A stretch of 34,805 nucleotides of DNA, taken from assembly GCA_018679695.1 (NCBI GenBank), contig JAHHKH010000390.1, positions 1 to 34,805 of the forward strand, read 5' to 3'. Position 1 is the first letter of the stretch, and each line of letters begins with the position of its first letter. The notes beneath the pieces are model-generated. The model was not told the origin of the DNA. It searched no databases and saw nothing but the letters and a program-made list of their open reading frames with translations. The translations under genes were made by a program, and so were the position numbers. Shown here piece after piece: positions 26,733 to 34,753 of the stretch. The DNA comes from Maribacter sp. (GTDB lineage: Bacteria; Bacteroidota; Bacteroidia; Flavobacteriales; Flavobacteriaceae).

Positions 26733-28403
26733 CGTGGCTGTTGCACAACTCCGATAAACATCAATTCTTGCTTCTGCCAATGAGCGGAAATCCATAAATT
26801 AAGGGTATGCAAGGCAAAAAGAACTATACCGAAAAACTGTTCCCCGGCTTCCAGTTGTCGGACCGGATCCCAAAGGATAACCTTTACAGGAAGCTCCGCG
26901 AAACGCTCGACCTGAGTTTTATTTATAAGGATACAAAGGAACTATATGGATGTACCGGTAACCCCTCGATAGACCCCGTGGTCTTCTTCAAGCTGTTGAT
27001 TACAGGATACCTTGAGAATATCACTTCCGACCGGAAACTGGTGGAACACTGCAGTATGCGAATGGACGTGCTCTACTTTCTAGGCTATGACCTGGACGAG
27101 GAGCTACCATGGCATTCAACGATCAGTAGGACGAGGCAACTTTACCCGGAATCCCTTTTCGAAAAATTGTTCAACAAGGTATTTGCCCTGTGCGTAGACA
27201 GCGGGATGGTATCCGGACACACCCAAGCAGTGGATTCGGCCCCGATAAAAGCAAATGCATCAATGGAAAGCGTAGTGCCGAAAATGCCGGCATCCCCTAT
27301 GGAGAGCCACTTGAGGAAAGTATCGGAGGAAAACCCGGGCACCGCTAAAAGAGATGGCAAGAGCGTGTCCCCCGTAAAAATCTCCGCTCCCGAGCACGAG
27401 CTGAAGCGCGTGGAGAAGCACCACCAAAATCTGAGGGACAGTCCGGTACGCCTGGCCGGCGCGTCCCACAAGAAGGCGCGCCTGCCGGGCAACAAGACAC
27501 ATTACAGCCCCCGCGATCCGGATGCCCGTATATCGTTCAAGCCCGGCAAGGCCAGGAAGCCGGACTACCATTGCAGTATGGCGGTGGATACCGCGGAAGG
27601 GGTCATCTCGCATATCCAGGCCGACTTTGCCGACGGCAGGGACAGCCAGTACCTGAAGGATATCGGCCTGAAAACCCAGGGCCGTCTGGGAAAGAACGGG
27701 CTTACAATGACGGACCTCTTGGCGGACGCCGGGTATTCCAACGGTTCCAATTACGATTTTCTGGAACAAAGGAGGGTCACCGGGTGGATACCCGTTTTCG
27801 GGAAATACAAACCTGATATAGAAGGTTTCCCTTATAACAAGGAAAGGAACGAGTACCGTTGCCCAATGGACAGACCGCTGCCCTTCAAGGGGTTCAGTAC
27901 CAACAAGCACGGCACCGTGCTGAAAAACTACTGGGCGGCACCGAGGGACTGCAAGGCCTGCCCCATGAAACCCCAATGTGCGCCAAAAAAGAGATGCAAA
28001 AGTATCACCAGAACGATATACGACGAACCGTACCTGAGGGCCTACGCAAGGCAGCATAGCGAAAAGGGTAGGCAAATGAAAAGACTCAGGCAAAGTACGG
28101 TCGAACCGGTGTTCGGCAGCCTGACCCAGTTCTACGGTCTAAGAAAAATAGGCGTTCTCGGCAAGGCAGGTGCCCACAAGGTCATGCTCATGGCCGCAAT
28201 CGCATTCAACCTGAAAAAGTACCTTAAGAAAAGGGGAGGTAAACCCTCTATTCGCATTTTAAAGACGATCATGGAGGCATTCCAAGGCTACCTGACAATC
28301 TTTTACCGGCAAATCCGACCAAGACCGGTTCTCCTAAAGGCTCCGTAAAACCAGTCTACTCGGATCGATATCTTGTTTAAAGAGCACTTCTGCAACGGCC
28401 ACG
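26733..28403 (+). mobile_element. IS1182-type insertion sequence with imperfect terminal inverted repeats
   Basis: IRL CGTGGCTGTTGCACAACT (26733-26750) versus reverse complement of IRR CGTGGCCGTTGCAGAAGT (28386-28403); transposase inside; no clear target duplication seen. Confidence 0.8.
26807..28348 (+). CDS. IS1182 family transposase
   Basis: Full-length 513-aa ORF; YPESLFEKLFNKVFALCVDSGMV, VDSAPIKANAS, KHGTVLKNYWAAPRDCKACPMKPQC, RRQSTVEPVFG-like end. Confidence 0.92.
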   Translation: MQGKKNYTEKLFPGFQLSDRIPKDNLYRKLRETLDLSFIYKDTKELYGCTGNPSIDPVVFFKLLITGYLENITSDRKLVEHCSMRMDVLYFLGYDLDEELPWHSTISRTRQLYPESLFEKLFNKVFALCVDSGMVSGHTQAVDSAPIKANASMESVVPKMPASPMESHLRKVSEENPGTAKRDGKSVSPVKISAPEHELKRVEKHHQNLRDSPVRLAGASHKKARLPGNKTHYSPRDPDARISFKPGKARKPDYHCSMAVDTAEGVISHIQADFADGRDSQYLKDIGLKTQGRLGKNGLTMTDLLADAGYSNGSNYDFLEQRRVTGWIPVFGKYKPDIEGFPYNKERNEYRCPMDRPLPFKGFSTNKHGTVLKNYWAAPRDCKACPMKPQCAPKKRCKSITRTIYDEPYLRAYARQHSEKGRQMKRLRQSTVEPVFGSLTQFYGLRKIGVLGKAGAHKVMLMAAIAFNLKKYLKKRGGKPSIRILKTIMEAFQGYLTIFYRQIRPRPVLLKAP

Positions 28404-29705: not shown

Positions 29706-30053
29706 ATGGGAAGGCCAAAAAAGGAACTATCGTCGTTGAAAATAATACAGGTCAATGTCAGGATGACCGTAAACGATTATATGAAAGTATCTGCCGATGC
29801 GGAAACCATCGGACTGTCCATTACCGAATATATCCGAAGAAGAATTACGGAAAAGTCCCTGCCGAAGAAAAGGGTAAGTCCGTCCGACCGCAAACTTTTT
29901 GTTGAACTGAGCCGAGTGGGAAACAACCTGAACCAAATCGCCAAAGTTGTAAACTCGGGTATCCGTGACCCGTTGAGCATCCATAAACAAATAGAAGAAG
30001 TAAAAACGGTTTTGCAATATCTCAAATCAAATATCACGAACAATGATAGGTAA
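29706..30053 (+). CDS. MobC-like mobilization accessory protein
   Basis: RHH-like N-terminus and LFVELSRVGNNLNQIAKVVNSG motif; overlaps relaxase start. Confidence 0.85.
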   Translation: MGRPKKELSSLKIIQVNVRMTVNDYMKVSADAETIGLSITEYIRRRITEKSLPKKRVSPSDRKLFVELSRVGNNLNQIAKVVNSGIRDPLSIHKQIEEVKTVLQYLKSNITNNDR

Positions 30054-31095
30054 GATAGCCATAGGAAAGGATTTTTATGGAGTGCTGGCCTACAATCAAA
30101 AAAAGGTACGTGAAGGCGTCGGGTACGTGATAGATTCCAATATCGAGCTTTCCAGCTCCGTTGAAATGACCCGAGAATTCAATCTTATCAGGGAGCTTCG
30201 TCCAAGCCTTGGTAAAGCGGTACTCCATGTTTCCCTGAACCTGCCGCACTCGGACCATTTAGATGATAAGGAATTCGCATCGTTCGGGTGTGACTACCTA
30301 ATGGGCTTGGGATTCGATAACAACCAGTTCATTATGTACCGGCATACTGACACCGAACATGAGCATATCCATATTATAGCCAATAGGGTCAGGTATTCCG
30401 GCAGAACGGTAAACGACAGCAATATTAAAAGAAGAAGTCGGGAAATACTCAACGGTCTGGAAAAGAAATACGGACTGACCCAAATCGTAGGTATCACGAG
30501 TACCAAAAAATCGCTTACACAAAAAGAAATAGAGAAGACCCTGAGAACGGGCAATATCCCGATCAAACTTGTTCTTCAGGACAAAATCGGTTCGGCAATT
30601 TCAGAATCAACGGATACGACAGAATTTATCACGTTACTGGAGGGACAACATATATCGCCAAGATTCAACATAAGCAAGACCACGGGAAGAGTCTCGGGCA
30701 TATCGTTCAAATATCAAGGCGTTGTATATAAGGGCAGTACGCTCGGTAAAAAATTTTCATGGAACAGTATTACAAAACACATCGATTATGAGCAAACAAG
30801 AGACCGTCCAGTTATACTATCGGCTAATGAAAAAGAACGAGGAACTCATCATACTGGCGAAAGAAACCATGGAACGTCGATCGGGCCTGAACCAAGAATT
30901 GACAGAAGTGCGAAAGGCCCTGAAATTCCTTCTGGGCAATCAAAAGGTCATCTGGGAAAAATTGAGGGAGATGGAGTAATCGGGCCTTTAATTGAAGAAT
31001 CGGAATGGACTCCTTTCAGGCTGGAACTCATAGATGATGATATCAGGAAAAAGTCCAAAAGAAAGAAGAAAAAAAGGAAAGGGTGGGATCTTTAA
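30043..31095 (+). CDS. Relaxase/mobilization nuclease (MobB/VirD2-like)
   Basis: HTDTEHEHIHIIANRV metal-binding motif; FNLIRELRPSLGKAVLHVSLNLP. Confidence 0.92.
   Translation: MIGKIAIGKDFYGVLAYNQKKVREGVGYVIDSNIELSSSVEMTREFNLIRELRPSLGKAVLHVSLNLPHSDHLDDKEFASFGCDYLMGLGFDNNQFIMYRHTDTEHEHIHIIANRVRYSGRTVNDSNIKRRSREILNGLEKKYGLTQIVGITSTKKSLTQKEIEKTLRTGNIPIKLVLQDKIGSAISESTDTTEFITLLEGQHISPRFNISKTTGRVSGISFKYQGVVYKGSTLGKKFSWNSITKHIDYEQTRDRPVILSANEKERGTHHTGERNHGTSIGPEPRIDRSAKGPEIPSGQSKGHLGKIEGDGVIGPLIEESEWTPFRLELIDDDIRKKSKRKKKKRKGWDL
30788..30979 (+). CDS. Nested overlapping ORF in another frame of the relaxase 3' region (63 aa, coiled-coil-like)
   Basis: ATG-initiated MSKQETVQLYYRLMKKNEELIILAKETMERRSGLNQELTEVRKALKFLLGNQKVIWEKLREME. 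Confidence 0.5.
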   Translation: MSKQETVQLYYRLMKKNEELIILAKETMERRSGLNQELTEVRKALKFLLGNQKVIWEKLREME

Positions 31096-31106
31096 AATTA
31101 AAACGC

Positions 31107-31468
31107 ATGAAAAACGGTAACGAACAAGAACCTTCAGGATTGTCGCTCTCCGAAATCCAAGTATTGGAGATGATACGGAACAAAAAGTTCCTATCCATTA
31201 AGTTGATCATCAAAAACGGGGAGGTCGATGTCATCGAAGGACTGGAAAGGATACATACGGGCGAACGTATCATCGATATGTTGAAACAGCATGATTTTCA
31301 AAATCTGGAAATTAAGCAAAGCAATGGTAAGATCGTTTGTGTGAACAGGATATTCAGGAAAAAAATCCGTCCAGCCAAGAATACCAAGAGTTGTTGACCG
31401 GTATTCATAAGTATGGAATAAAATACAGGTTCCGCAAAGGATTTCATAAAATAAAAAAGGTAAATTAA
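31107..31468 (+). CDS. Hypothetical small protein, ORF apparently interrupted by a -1 shift at an A7 run (0-frame stop at 31397)
   Basis: 0-frame MKNGNEQ...NRIFRKK then -1 frame NPSSQEYQELLTGIHKYGIKYRFRKGFHKIKKVN*; A-run at 31359-31365. Confidence 0.5.
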
Positions 31469-31531
31469 AGCCTGCTTTTACAAATACGGTAGTGACCTTC
31501 AGGACACAGGAGCTGCCGATATGTGCGAAAA

Positions 31532-31720
31532 ATGTCAAACCCGATAGTTGAGCAAAAGCGGAAAAACAAAATATTCAACAGTACATGGCTTAAGACTTAT
31601 AAAGGTTTTGAGGATTGTTCGAAAGAAGATGCGGAAAAGATAGTAGAACAACTTCTAGCACTCGCCAACATAGTCTGTGACCATGTCCAAAAAGGGAGTG
31701 GAGATGAACATACCATATAA
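31532..31720 (+). CDS. Small hypothetical protein
   Basis: MSNPIVEQKRKNKIFNSTWLKTYKGFEDCSKEDAEKIVEQLLALANIVCDHVQKGSGDEHTI. Confidence 0.5.
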   Translation: MSNPIVEQKRKNKIFNSTWLKTYKGFEDCSKEDAEKIVEQLLALANIVCDHVQKGSGDEHTI

Positions 31721-31850: not shown

Positions 31851-32204
31851 ATGTCGGACAATTTGGAACATAATGGTTATTTCGGTTCCGTGGAGTATAG
31901 TTCAAGGGACGGCCTGCTGCACGGAAAGGTGATCGGAACAAGCGATCTGGTGACCTATGAGGGCGGGTCCGTGAAAGAGCTGAAGGAGGCCTTTGAAGAG
32001 TCCGTCGACGATTATCTTGACACCTGCAAGGAGCTTGGCAAAGAACCGGACAGGTTCTATAGGGGAGTGTTCAATATCCGTACGTCCAGTAAAATCCACA
32101 GGGAGCTTTCTATAATGGCCGAAAGGAAAAAAATGAAATTGAACGAACTGGTCAACAAGGCCTTTGATTATCTGGTAAAGAACGAGGACAAAGTCCTAAA
32201 ATAA
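31851..32204 (+). CDS. HicB family antitoxin-like protein
   Basis: HicB-like fold segment (GYFGSVEYSSRDGLLHGKVIGTSDLVTYEGGSVKELKEAFEESVDDYLDTC) and C-terminal RHH. Confidence 0.85.
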   Translation: MSDNLEHNGYFGSVEYSSRDGLLHGKVIGTSDLVTYEGGSVKELKEAFEESVDDYLDTCKELGKEPDRFYRGVFNIRTSSKIHRELSIMAERKKMKLNELVNKAFDYLVKNEDKVLK

Positions 32205-32304
32205 AATAGGGTCGGACAATGGGAACAGGACCGAAAGAATGTTCCGGAAAGCCGAAAGACAGGCCCAAAAGAAAGTAGCAATCGATTTAAATATCAACTA
32301 ACCC

Positions 32305-33144
32305 ATGGAAGGAAAAGATCCGTTCGTCGCCATTAGGAAAAAATACGACTCCCTAAAGGAAAAATACGATGAAATAATCGTATCGGCCTTTGATGCCGGT
32401 GATTTCAGGAAATACAATGAAATCCTGTTATCGGCCCATAGTTGCGGTATCGAGGGCAATAGCTTCAGCGTGGACGACACCAGGGAACTTAAGGAAAAGG
32501 GATATGCCGTTAATCTTGTCAACAAGACGCTTTTGGAAGCGTTCGAAATAATGGATCATTTCAATGCGTACGATCATATTTTGAAAAACCAGGGTTCCGA
32601 CTTCAATGAACCCTTCGTTAGAACGGTACATAGAATATTGACCAAAAATACGTTGCCCTATAAGGGCCATAGACCCGGGGAATATGCCAAGACCCAAATG
32701 GCGGCCGGTGATACCGTATTCCGTGACACCAAAAAGGCTATAGCGAACATGCCTAGGCTTCTGGCCAGTTTTGACGATGCCATCAAGAACAAAAAAACGC
32801 ATCCTTTGGAATTGAGTGCCATATTCCACCAAATGTTCATTTACAGCCATCCCTTCCCGGATGGCAATGGAAGGTTGGGCCGCTTGCTCTCCAATTTTAT
32901 TCTGGAGAAGTTCAAACATCCCCATATCATAATTTTGAAGGAGGATAGGCAAGAATACATCGATGCGCTCAAAGCTTCCGAGAAACACAACAATATGTTG
33001 GCGATAGTCAACTTTTTTTATGATACGTCGATCAAGAGGATGCAAAAGGAAATAGGTCAAAAAAAAAACCTTTCGAAGAATTTCAACTTGGGCATCCAGG
33101 ACGGGAGTAAAGGAAAAAAGGGCTTAGGAGGACCAAAAAGATAA
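32305..33144 (+). CDS. Fic family protein
   Basis: HPFPDGNGRLGR Fic motif; N-terminal SCGIEGN fits inhibitory (S/T)xxxE(G/N). Confidence 0.93.
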   Translation: MEGKDPFVAIRKKYDSLKEKYDEIIVSAFDAGDFRKYNEILLSAHSCGIEGNSFSVDDTRELKEKGYAVNLVNKTLLEAFEIMDHFNAYDHILKNQGSDFNEPFVRTVHRILTKNTLPYKGHRPGEYAKTQMAAGDTVFRDTKKAIANMPRLLASFDDAIKNKKTHPLELSAIFHQMFIYSHPFPDGNGRLGRLLSNFILEKFKHPHIIILKEDRQEYIDALKASEKHNNMLAIVNFFYDTSIKRMQKEIGQKKNLSKNFNLGIQDGSKGKKGLGGPKR

Positions 33145-33148
33145 CAGT

Positions 33149-34753
33149 ATGGACTTAGAGGTATTCGGGCAATTTGCCAAAAAGGAAAAGGGAAGGGTCA
33201 TAGGAAAAAGTGATACGTGCGTTATTTACACCCGTGTTTCCAGCAAAGAGCAGTTCGATAACAATGCCAGTCTGACCACCCAACTCAAGTATTGCCAAGA
33301 GTATGCGATCAGAAAAGAGCTGGAGGTAATAGAATATTTCGGGGGAACCTATGAATCGGCAAAGAGCGATGAACGTAGGGAGTTCCAAAAGATGCTGAAC
33401 TATGTCAAGAGAAGAAAGAACATCGGTTATATCATTGTCTATTCCTACGACAGGTTTTCAAGAACGGGTGCGAACGGTGCCTATATCAGCGGACAGTTAA
33501 AAAAGCAAGGAGTAGCGGTTATTTCGGCCACTCAGGAAATCGATGTGACAACAAGTGCCGGTACGTTCCAGGAGAATCTTTTTCATATGTTTTCCCACTT
33601 CGACAACCAGATCCGTAGGGACAAATCCATTACCGGCATGCAGGAAAAGTTACGGAGGGGATACTGGACGGGATCATACCCATTTGGATACACCAATACA
33701 AATCCGGGAAAGGGGAAGATTCCGAATTTCGTGATCACGGAAAAAGGAAGATTGTTGAAGCAAGCCTTTATATGGAAGGCTAATGTCAATATGTCCCATG
33801 TCGAGATTGCAAAACGTCTGAAAGAAAAAGGCCTGAACATAAACGCAAAGAAACTTACAGATCTTTTCAGGAACCCTTTTTATTGTGGGCTTATTGTCAA
33901 CAGCCTGATTCCGGGAGAGGTGATTCAGGGAAAACATGAAGCCCTTATTTCAAAGAAGGTTTTTCTGAAAATACATGATTTGCTTCACACGGGCGACACA
34001 CCCAAGAAATATTCGTTCGACGATGAAAACCTACCATTGAAAAAGTTCGTCAGATCCTCGGTCTGCGGAACGCCTTATACTGGATTTATCGTAAAGAAAA
34101 AGGGGCTGTATTATTACAAAAATAGGCGTAAGGGAAGTAAGGAAAACAGAAGTGCCAAAAAGCTCCATGCAGAATTTTTAAATTTATTGGAGAGGTTCAG
34201 AATAACCGATAGAAAGTATATCGAACCATTGACCGAGATAATTCACGACACCTTGATTGATAAGAATCAAGAGGCGCTTGACGACCAAAAACGATTGACC
34301 AAAGAACTTGGCCAGCTCGAAGAACGGATTGATACATTGGAAAGAAGATTCGTTGTAATGAACGAAATTTCAAGGTCGCAGTACGACCTTTTTATGCCGG
34401 AACTAAAAAGCAAACATAGGGAATTGGAGATAAAACTGGAAAGTGGGGGCATCAATAGTTCAAACCTCAAAAAATCCGTAAAAATGGCACTTGGATATGC
34501 CTGTAACCTACCTTCCCTGTGGGAGTTAGGCAATCTGGAAACTAAGAGGGCCATACAATATATGGTATTCCCTGACGGGATTGAGTATGACTTCAAAAAC
34601 AAGCTAGTTCAAACTTTTCGGGTCAACGAAATTTTTGGTGCAATCCGCTCATTTTCAGGGAATTTGAAGGAAATTAAAAAGGGGACTTTCCACTCGATTT
34701 GTGGAAAATCCCCTTTAGTGACCTCGACAGGATTCAAACCTGTAACCTTCTGA
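33149..34753 (+). CDS. Large serine recombinase; C-terminus encoded through terminator and tRNA
   Basis: VIYTRVSSKEQ catalytic region, YSYDRFSRTG, recombinase domain GYWTGSYPFGY; last 11 codons lie in the tRNA. Confidence 0.92.
   Translation: MDLEVFGQFAKKEKGRVIGKSDTCVIYTRVSSKEQFDNNASLTTQLKYCQEYAIRKELEVIEYFGGTYESAKSDERREFQKMLNYVKRRKNIGYIIVYSYDRFSRTGANGAYISGQLKKQGVAVISATQEIDVTTSAGTFQENLFHMFSHFDNQIRRDKSITGMQEKLRRGYWTGSYPFGYTNTNPGKGKIPNFVITEKGRLLKQAFIWKANVNMSHVEIAKRLKEKGLNINAKKLTDLFRNPFYCGLIVNSLIPGEVIQGKHEALISKKVFLKIHDLLHTGDTPKKYSFDDENLPLKKFVRSSVCGTPYTGFIVKKKGLYYYKNRRKGSKENRSAKKLHAEFLNLLERFRITDRKYIEPLTEIIHDTLIDKNQEALDDQKRLTKELGQLEERIDTLERRFVVMNEISRSQYDLFMPELKSKHRELEIKLESGGINSSNLKKSVKMALGYACNLPSLWELGNLETKRAIQYMVFPDGIEYDFKNKLVQTFRVNEIFGAIRSFSGNLKEIKKGTFHSICGKSPLVTSTGFKPVTF
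34681..34713 (-). terminator. tRNA terminator hairpin overlapping recombinase 3' end
   Basis: GGGGACTTTCCAC-TCGATTT-GTGGAAAATCCCC, one mismatch; T-run on the minus strand. Confidence 0.75.

Follow-up and report, generated by a model that had tools for sequence, protein, structure and literature searches.

A short gene nested within a flavobacterial relaxase gene, probably encoding a counterpart of MobB

Introduction

In ColE1-type plasmids, the genes for MbeB and MbeD (MobB and MobD) overlap mbeA. RSF1010 carries mobB within mobA/repB in another reading frame, and MobB is essential for mobilization (PMC2200642). The transport signals of R1162 require MobB, according to the title of Parker and Meyer (2007), cited in PMC3297438. 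The RP4 gene traI holds, in a different frame, the gene for TraH, which stabilises the TraI–TraJ complex at oriT (PMC7314908). Nested relaxase helpers are already known (RSF1010 mobB, RP4 traH); the short, anchor-less flavobacterial form described here is new. It lies in a Maribacter sp. contig (JAHHKH010000390.1, assembly GCA_018679695.1), positions 1–34,805 of which constitute the window analysed below.

Among the closest described counterparts of the window protein is IncQ MobB (RSF1010/R1162; PF17511, Mobilization_B). Both are encoded fully inside a relaxase gene in its +1 frame, start at a motif of the type Y/H-E-x-x-R near codon 250, just past the relaxase domain, have a helical N-terminal part and are accompanied by an adjoining MobC/NikA-type gene. 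In the RSF1010-type plasmids that served as representatives of RSF1010 (L108 and L109), mobB is likewise in frame +1 of mobA and starts at the motif E-H-E-R-D-R. The two proteins differ in size (63 aa in the window, about 137–167 aa in IncQ MobB) and in the C-terminal membrane segment, which RSF1010-type MobB has and the window protein lacks. Their hosts differ too, the relaxase being of MOB_P type here whereas RSF1010 MobA is MOB_Q.

TraH of the IncP plasmids RP4 and R751 resembles the window protein in being small and in having its gene inside that of a MOB_P relaxase, in a different frame. However, the R751 TraH-like ORF begins at traI codon 515, far from the end of the relaxase domain, whereas the window gene begins at codon 248; it is about 130 aa long rather than 63, and TraH is acidic, unlike the near-neutral window protein (net charge from −2 to +5 among homologues). 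No sequence similarity was seen between the two. ColE1-type MbeB and MbeD are also small helical mobilization proteins whose genes overlap a MOB_P relaxase gene in other frames.

Results

A 63-codon reading frame nested in the relaxase gene

The host of the overlap is a MOB_P-type relaxase gene of 350 codons (30043..31095, + strand). Its product is a MobA/VirD2-like nuclease (Pfam Relaxase PF03432, E=7.9e-34), and its match to the Bacteroides MobB-relaxase profile NF041325 (E=1.7e-45) falls under the curated cut-off of that profile. The start of the gene is overlapped by the 3' end of a gene for a NikA/MobC-like DNA-binding mobilization protein (29706..30053, + strand; PF21983 NikA-like, E=1.4e-15; PF05713 MobC, E=8.4e-8). 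Nested in the relaxase gene on the same strand is a 63-codon ORF that runs from an ATG at 30788 to a TAA at 30977–30979, in the +1 frame relative to the relaxase ORF and offset from its start by 745 nt. The ATG, at relaxase codon 248, is made by the Tyr and Glu codons of the relaxase motif Y-E-Q-T-R-D, the DNA of which (30787..30804, + strand) doubles as the nested start (tATGAGCAAACAAGAGAC, read as M-S-K-Q-E-T).

An A-rich tract 5' of the ATG (30763..30786, + strand) is the probable translation-initiation region of the nested gene, judging by the aligned upstream sequences and raised synonymous conservation. A TTG further upstream could lengthen the frame to 85 aa; this start was rejected, as most homologues have a +1-frame stop shortly 5' of the conserved ATG, and ATG 30788 is the start common to all of them. 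Taken by itself, the window genome provides weak evidence for a gene, because 4–6% of synonymous-codon shuffles yield such an ORF: in 6% of shuffles of the window relaxase a +1 ATG-initiated ORF of at least 63 codons arises anywhere in the gene, and in 4% at the nested site itself.

AlphaFold2 predicts the relaxase to be folded to about residue 263, and among solved structures the model is matched best by the relaxase domain of R1162 MobA (2ns6; Foldseek E=2.9e-3, probability 1.00). Residues 266–350 (30838..31092, + strand) form a predicted disordered tail, with pLDDT of about 25–42, which holds most of the nested gene. A preliminary description of this DNA had placed a 63-aa ORF at 30788–30979 and called the relaxase frame there low in complexity, quoting residues 265–303. 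We reproduced its coordinates and peptide exactly, and the disorder predicted for residues 266–350 agrees with its reading of the relaxase frame. After the nuclease motifs, relaxase residues 174–263 (~30562–30831) are confidently predicted to make up a second compact region (pLDDT 84–94), possibly a translocation-signal-like domain, which ends where the nested gene begins.

Conservation among flavobacterial homologues

Relaxase homologues were gathered by scanning unannotated genome collections and came from Allomuricauda, Flagellimonas, Maribacter, Euzebyella, Croceivirga, Hyunsoonleella and related genomes. All 41 relaxase genes, which are 50–100% identical and include that of the window, have an ATG at the identical alignment position followed by an open +1 frame. 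The frame is 63–67 codons long and ends at or near the same place, one copy being cut by a contig end. Restricting the comparison to non-redundant genes (>3% apart) gives the same result, ATG and open frame being present in 31/31. Eight residues (M1, K3, E5, T6, L9, N51, Q52 and W56) are invariant in 22 aligned nested proteins, and the relaxase frame varies freely across the central and C-terminal part of the overlap. Searching 150 related genomes with a profile of the nested protein returned strong matches only at relaxase loci and no convincing free-standing copy; a further genome, G757, has two strong matches. A weak match of 18 residues in G085 (E=0.009) and another within a long ORF in G794 (E=6e-5) look like chance. 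Flagellimonas pelagia (L034, L047, L049, L065) and Allomuricauda sediminis (L039, L043, L044, L057) each carry about four diverged copies of the mob module in one genome, with the nested gene intact in all.

The NikA-like gene adjoins the relaxase gene in all close homologues, and the nested gene accompanies this pair although other neighbouring modules differ. In most elements a serine recombinase and two small ORFs follow downstream; L053, L055–L057 and L063 lack them. In the window, the small ORFs 3' of the relaxase gene lie at 31110–31394 (95 aa) and 31523–31717 (65 aa) on the + strand. They are conserved at about 77–98% and 67–88%, respectively, in most serine-recombinase-bearing elements, and neither has a convincing Pfam match. 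Beyond the mob genes, 31851–34753 (+ strand) encodes a HicB-like protein, a Fic-domain protein and a large serine recombinase, a layout that suggests an integrative mobilizable element; the Fic and HicB genes are variable cargo among relatives. A transposase-like ORF of 513 aa, IS1182-like by eye, lies 5' of the mob region (26807–28348, + strand).

Selection in the two frames

Selection was analysed in the 31 genes that differ by more than 3%. Inside the nested stretch, pairwise differences average 0.40, 0.31 and 0.25 at relaxase codon positions 1, 2 and 3, as against about 0.13–0.25, 0.08–0.17 and 0.40–0.44 upstream, where the third position is always fastest. Measured over 64 codons at a time, the ratio of third- to first-position differences drops to 0.64 exactly at codon 248; it is 1.6–3.4 in segments clear of the nested stretch. 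We estimated dN/dS by an OLGenie-style count over all close pairs, which covers one clade in depth. Inside the overlap, dN/dS is 0.18 (0.11–0.28) in the nested frame and 0.84 (0.51–1.43) in the relaxase frame, the intervals being rough since the pairs are not phylogenetically independent. Outside the overlap, the relaxase frame has values of 0.04–0.23 and the +1 frame of 0.47–0.85.

Synonymous sites of the relaxase frame tell of the same constraint. The fraction of identical codons over the nested stretch is 0.72–0.98, compared with 0.56–0.67 expected, and that over codons 240–247, just 5' of the ATG, is 0.83 compared with 0.64, as would be expected of an initiation region. Within the motif, all 35 distinct genes use TAT for the Tyr whose codon helps to form the ATG, although TAT accounts for 60% of Tyr codons elsewhere in the same genes; the Gln codon is CAA in 35/35 (background 60%), and the Arg codon on which nested Glu5 depends is AGA in 35/35 (background 29%). 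Evolution was also simulated on the third-position tree with 31 leaves and the relaxase frame alone constrained. The mean number of leaves keeping the ATG and an open frame was 0.1 (omega 0.84) to 2.9 (omega 0.1), with a maximum of 19, against 31/31 in reality.

This conservation and selection in homologues place the frame far beyond chance, and 30788–30979 is almost certainly a genuine overlapping protein-coding gene. The preliminary description had proposed as much, and the 41/41 conservation and purifying selection in the nested frame bear it out. Its suggestion of comparing synonymous-site constraint in both frames led to the contrast between a nested frame under purifying selection and a near-neutral relaxase frame over the same DNA; the stops or missing starts in homologues that it held to speak against a gene occur in none of the 41.

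Predicted structure of the nested protein

Run on the family alignment, AlphaFold2 predicts a single long helix for the nested protein, spanning residues 3–62 with a mean pLDDT of 95.6. Read from the sequence, L34, V41, L48, I55 and M62, together with L38, L45 and L59, form a heptad pattern consistent with a coiled coil. No relative was found in Pfam or the PDB, where only weak coiled-coil chance matches were returned (best E about 0.006 among 22 members for Pfam; E at least 0.26 for the PDB), and tblastn with the 63-aa protein gave no match in plasmids. PF17511 has no match in the window protein or 21 other aligned members; the controls, L108 (3.6e-68) and the MobB of a Plesiomonas plasmid (L070, E=3.7e-13), do match. 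PF04899 (MbeD_MobD) finds nothing in the window's genome at E<=10, and the aligned nested proteins show no convincing Pfam match.

Nested frames in distant relaxases

Searching with the relaxase by tblastn retrieved small plasmids of Gamma-, Beta- and Alphaproteobacteria and plasmids of Cyanobacteria. In the records of Plesiomonas L070 and Serratia L106, an annotated IncQ-type MobB begins at nt 742 of the relaxase ORF and reads in the same +1 frame. We surveyed distant relaxases bearing a motif of the type Y-E-x-x-R-D, as judged by eye; the motif is degenerate in L075 and L102. In 13/16, a nested ORF of 100 codons or more lies in frame +1 at the site or within 7 nt of it, with carriers in Plesiomonas, Serratia, Salmonella, Aeromonas, Komagataeibacter, Leptolyngbya and several Bacteroidota; such an ORF is lacking in two cyanobacterial genes, which have the motif Y-N/Q-P-K-R-D, and in L074. 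Where a relaxase lacks the motif, no comparable ORF is seen at that site. L074, a distant Bacteroidota relaxase (37% identity) with its own ORF intact, keeps the nested ATG and N-terminus (MIRKEIGK*FSK*MLNQ, compared with MNKKEIAQQFTRQMLGQ in L072) and has stops where L072 has Gln. It is apparently a decayed nested gene, a natural case of loss.

The flip in periodicity recurs in the pairs L072/L073 and L070/L106, the nested genes of which therefore also look selected; in the more divergent pairs L076/L094, L096/L094 and L071/L107 the comparison of position rates is saturated. A C-terminal membrane segment is found in most distant nested proteins but not in the flavobacterial family, where the maximum 19-residue hydropathy is at most 0.7, compared with 1.9–3.2 in nested proteins bearing the segment. 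Other nested +1 ORFs of Bacteroidota (L072, L073, L076, L094, L096) share with the window gene the frame, the start motif and an MNK/MSK-x-E start, and L072/L073 share its selection signature as well. They differ in length (103–137 aa), in having a C-terminal membrane segment and in showing no detectable similarity past the N-terminus. Profile comparison of the flavobacterial with the other nested proteins, including relatives annotated as MobB, finds similarity in the first 12–15 residues alone (E=8e-4 and 6.5e-5). Because the conserved relaxase motif encodes most of those residues, their similarity is no independent sign of common descent.

Discussion

Proposed role of the nested protein

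We regard the window protein as probably related to MobB, in a shorter form, or equivalent to it in function. By analogy we infer that it works like MobB and TraH; we do not assign it to PF17511, because profile similarity stops short of the body of the protein and nested genes may have originated repeatedly. A role as relaxosome helper is likely on the same analogy. Taken as a whole, the explanation that we favour, with good though not full confidence, is that the nested gene encodes a soluble, coiled-coil, MobB/TraH-like relaxosome helper. Translation would initiate internally at ATG 30788 within the relaxase gene, giving a soluble 63-residue helical protein capable of forming a coiled coil. 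The helix would oligomerise and bind the relaxase, the NikA-like protein or both at oriT. There it could stabilise the nicked complex or help to pass it on to the type IV coupling machinery, in the same way that RSF1010 MobB and RP4 TraH work.

It seems rather unlikely that the product works elsewhere than in the relaxosome, whether in entry exclusion, in regulating the mob operon or the recombinase beside it, or as a small inhibitor directed at other elements. The sequence by itself indicates no particular partner and small helical proteins have varied roles, but among the relatives searched the gene occurs at relaxase loci alone, it has been retained in relaxase genes that lack the recombinase, Fic and HicB neighbours, and the ORFs at its position in distant relaxases include some annotated as MobB. 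Were the +1 frame reached by programmed ribosomal frameshifting near codon 245–248, the relaxase would gain an alternative C-terminus in the form of a coiled-coil fusion. This would suit a +1 frame that begins right where the folded part of the relaxase ends and synonymous conservation that starts slightly 5', at codons 240–247. Frameshifting is nevertheless very improbable: it leaves unexplained an ATG in 41/41 genes and a Tyr codon that is TAT in 35/35 though TAC makes up 40% elsewhere, and the distant ORFs at the same site also begin at ATG and are annotated as separate MobB genes.

Strong synonymous conservation over codons 240–311 might also stem from RNA structure, a protein-binding site or another non-coding signal. 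Such a source of constraint was rejected because the three-base rhythm follows the +1 frame, with the relaxase first position, which is the nested wobble position, varying most. The nested dN/dS, the frame being open in every homologue and the simulation also largely refute it, so we consider it extremely unlikely. A functionless open frame, to which the shuffles of the window relaxase leave some room when taken alone, was likewise rejected by conservation, selection and simulation, the frame being kept in every non-redundant homologue but in few simulated leaves and purifying selection acting on it; its probability is close to nil.

The favoured reading, that of a MobB/TraH-like helper, has two consequences. 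Because annotation easily misses overlapping genes, part of the transfer machinery of mobile elements may have been overlooked in marine flavobacteria and perhaps in many Bacteroidota. The protein would also be a natural minimal, anchor-less counterpart of MobB, with which to ask what role falls to each part of MobB. The locus itself is a clean example of a constrained gene within the nearly free, disordered tail of another gene.

Origin of the nested genes

Their shared site and frame in three phyla argue for a common origin of the nested genes; alternatively, they may have arisen repeatedly at a favourable ATG in a disordered tail. It is conceivable, at slightly less than an even chance in our estimation, that mobilization relaxase genes in Bacteroidota, Cyanobacteria and Proteobacteria, of both MOB_P and RSF1010-type MOB_Q, have since ancient times included a nested helper gene that starts at Y-E-x-x-R-D just past the relaxase domain. 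The relaxase motif and the N-terminus of the helper would then have shared their DNA from a time before the module passed between these groups, and the flavobacterial form would be a reduced one that lost its anchor to become a soluble coiled coil. For L070, L071 and L106 the plasmid gene table, though known to lack entries, reverses the usual outcome of annotation: it lists the nested MobB-type ORF but not the overlapping relaxase.
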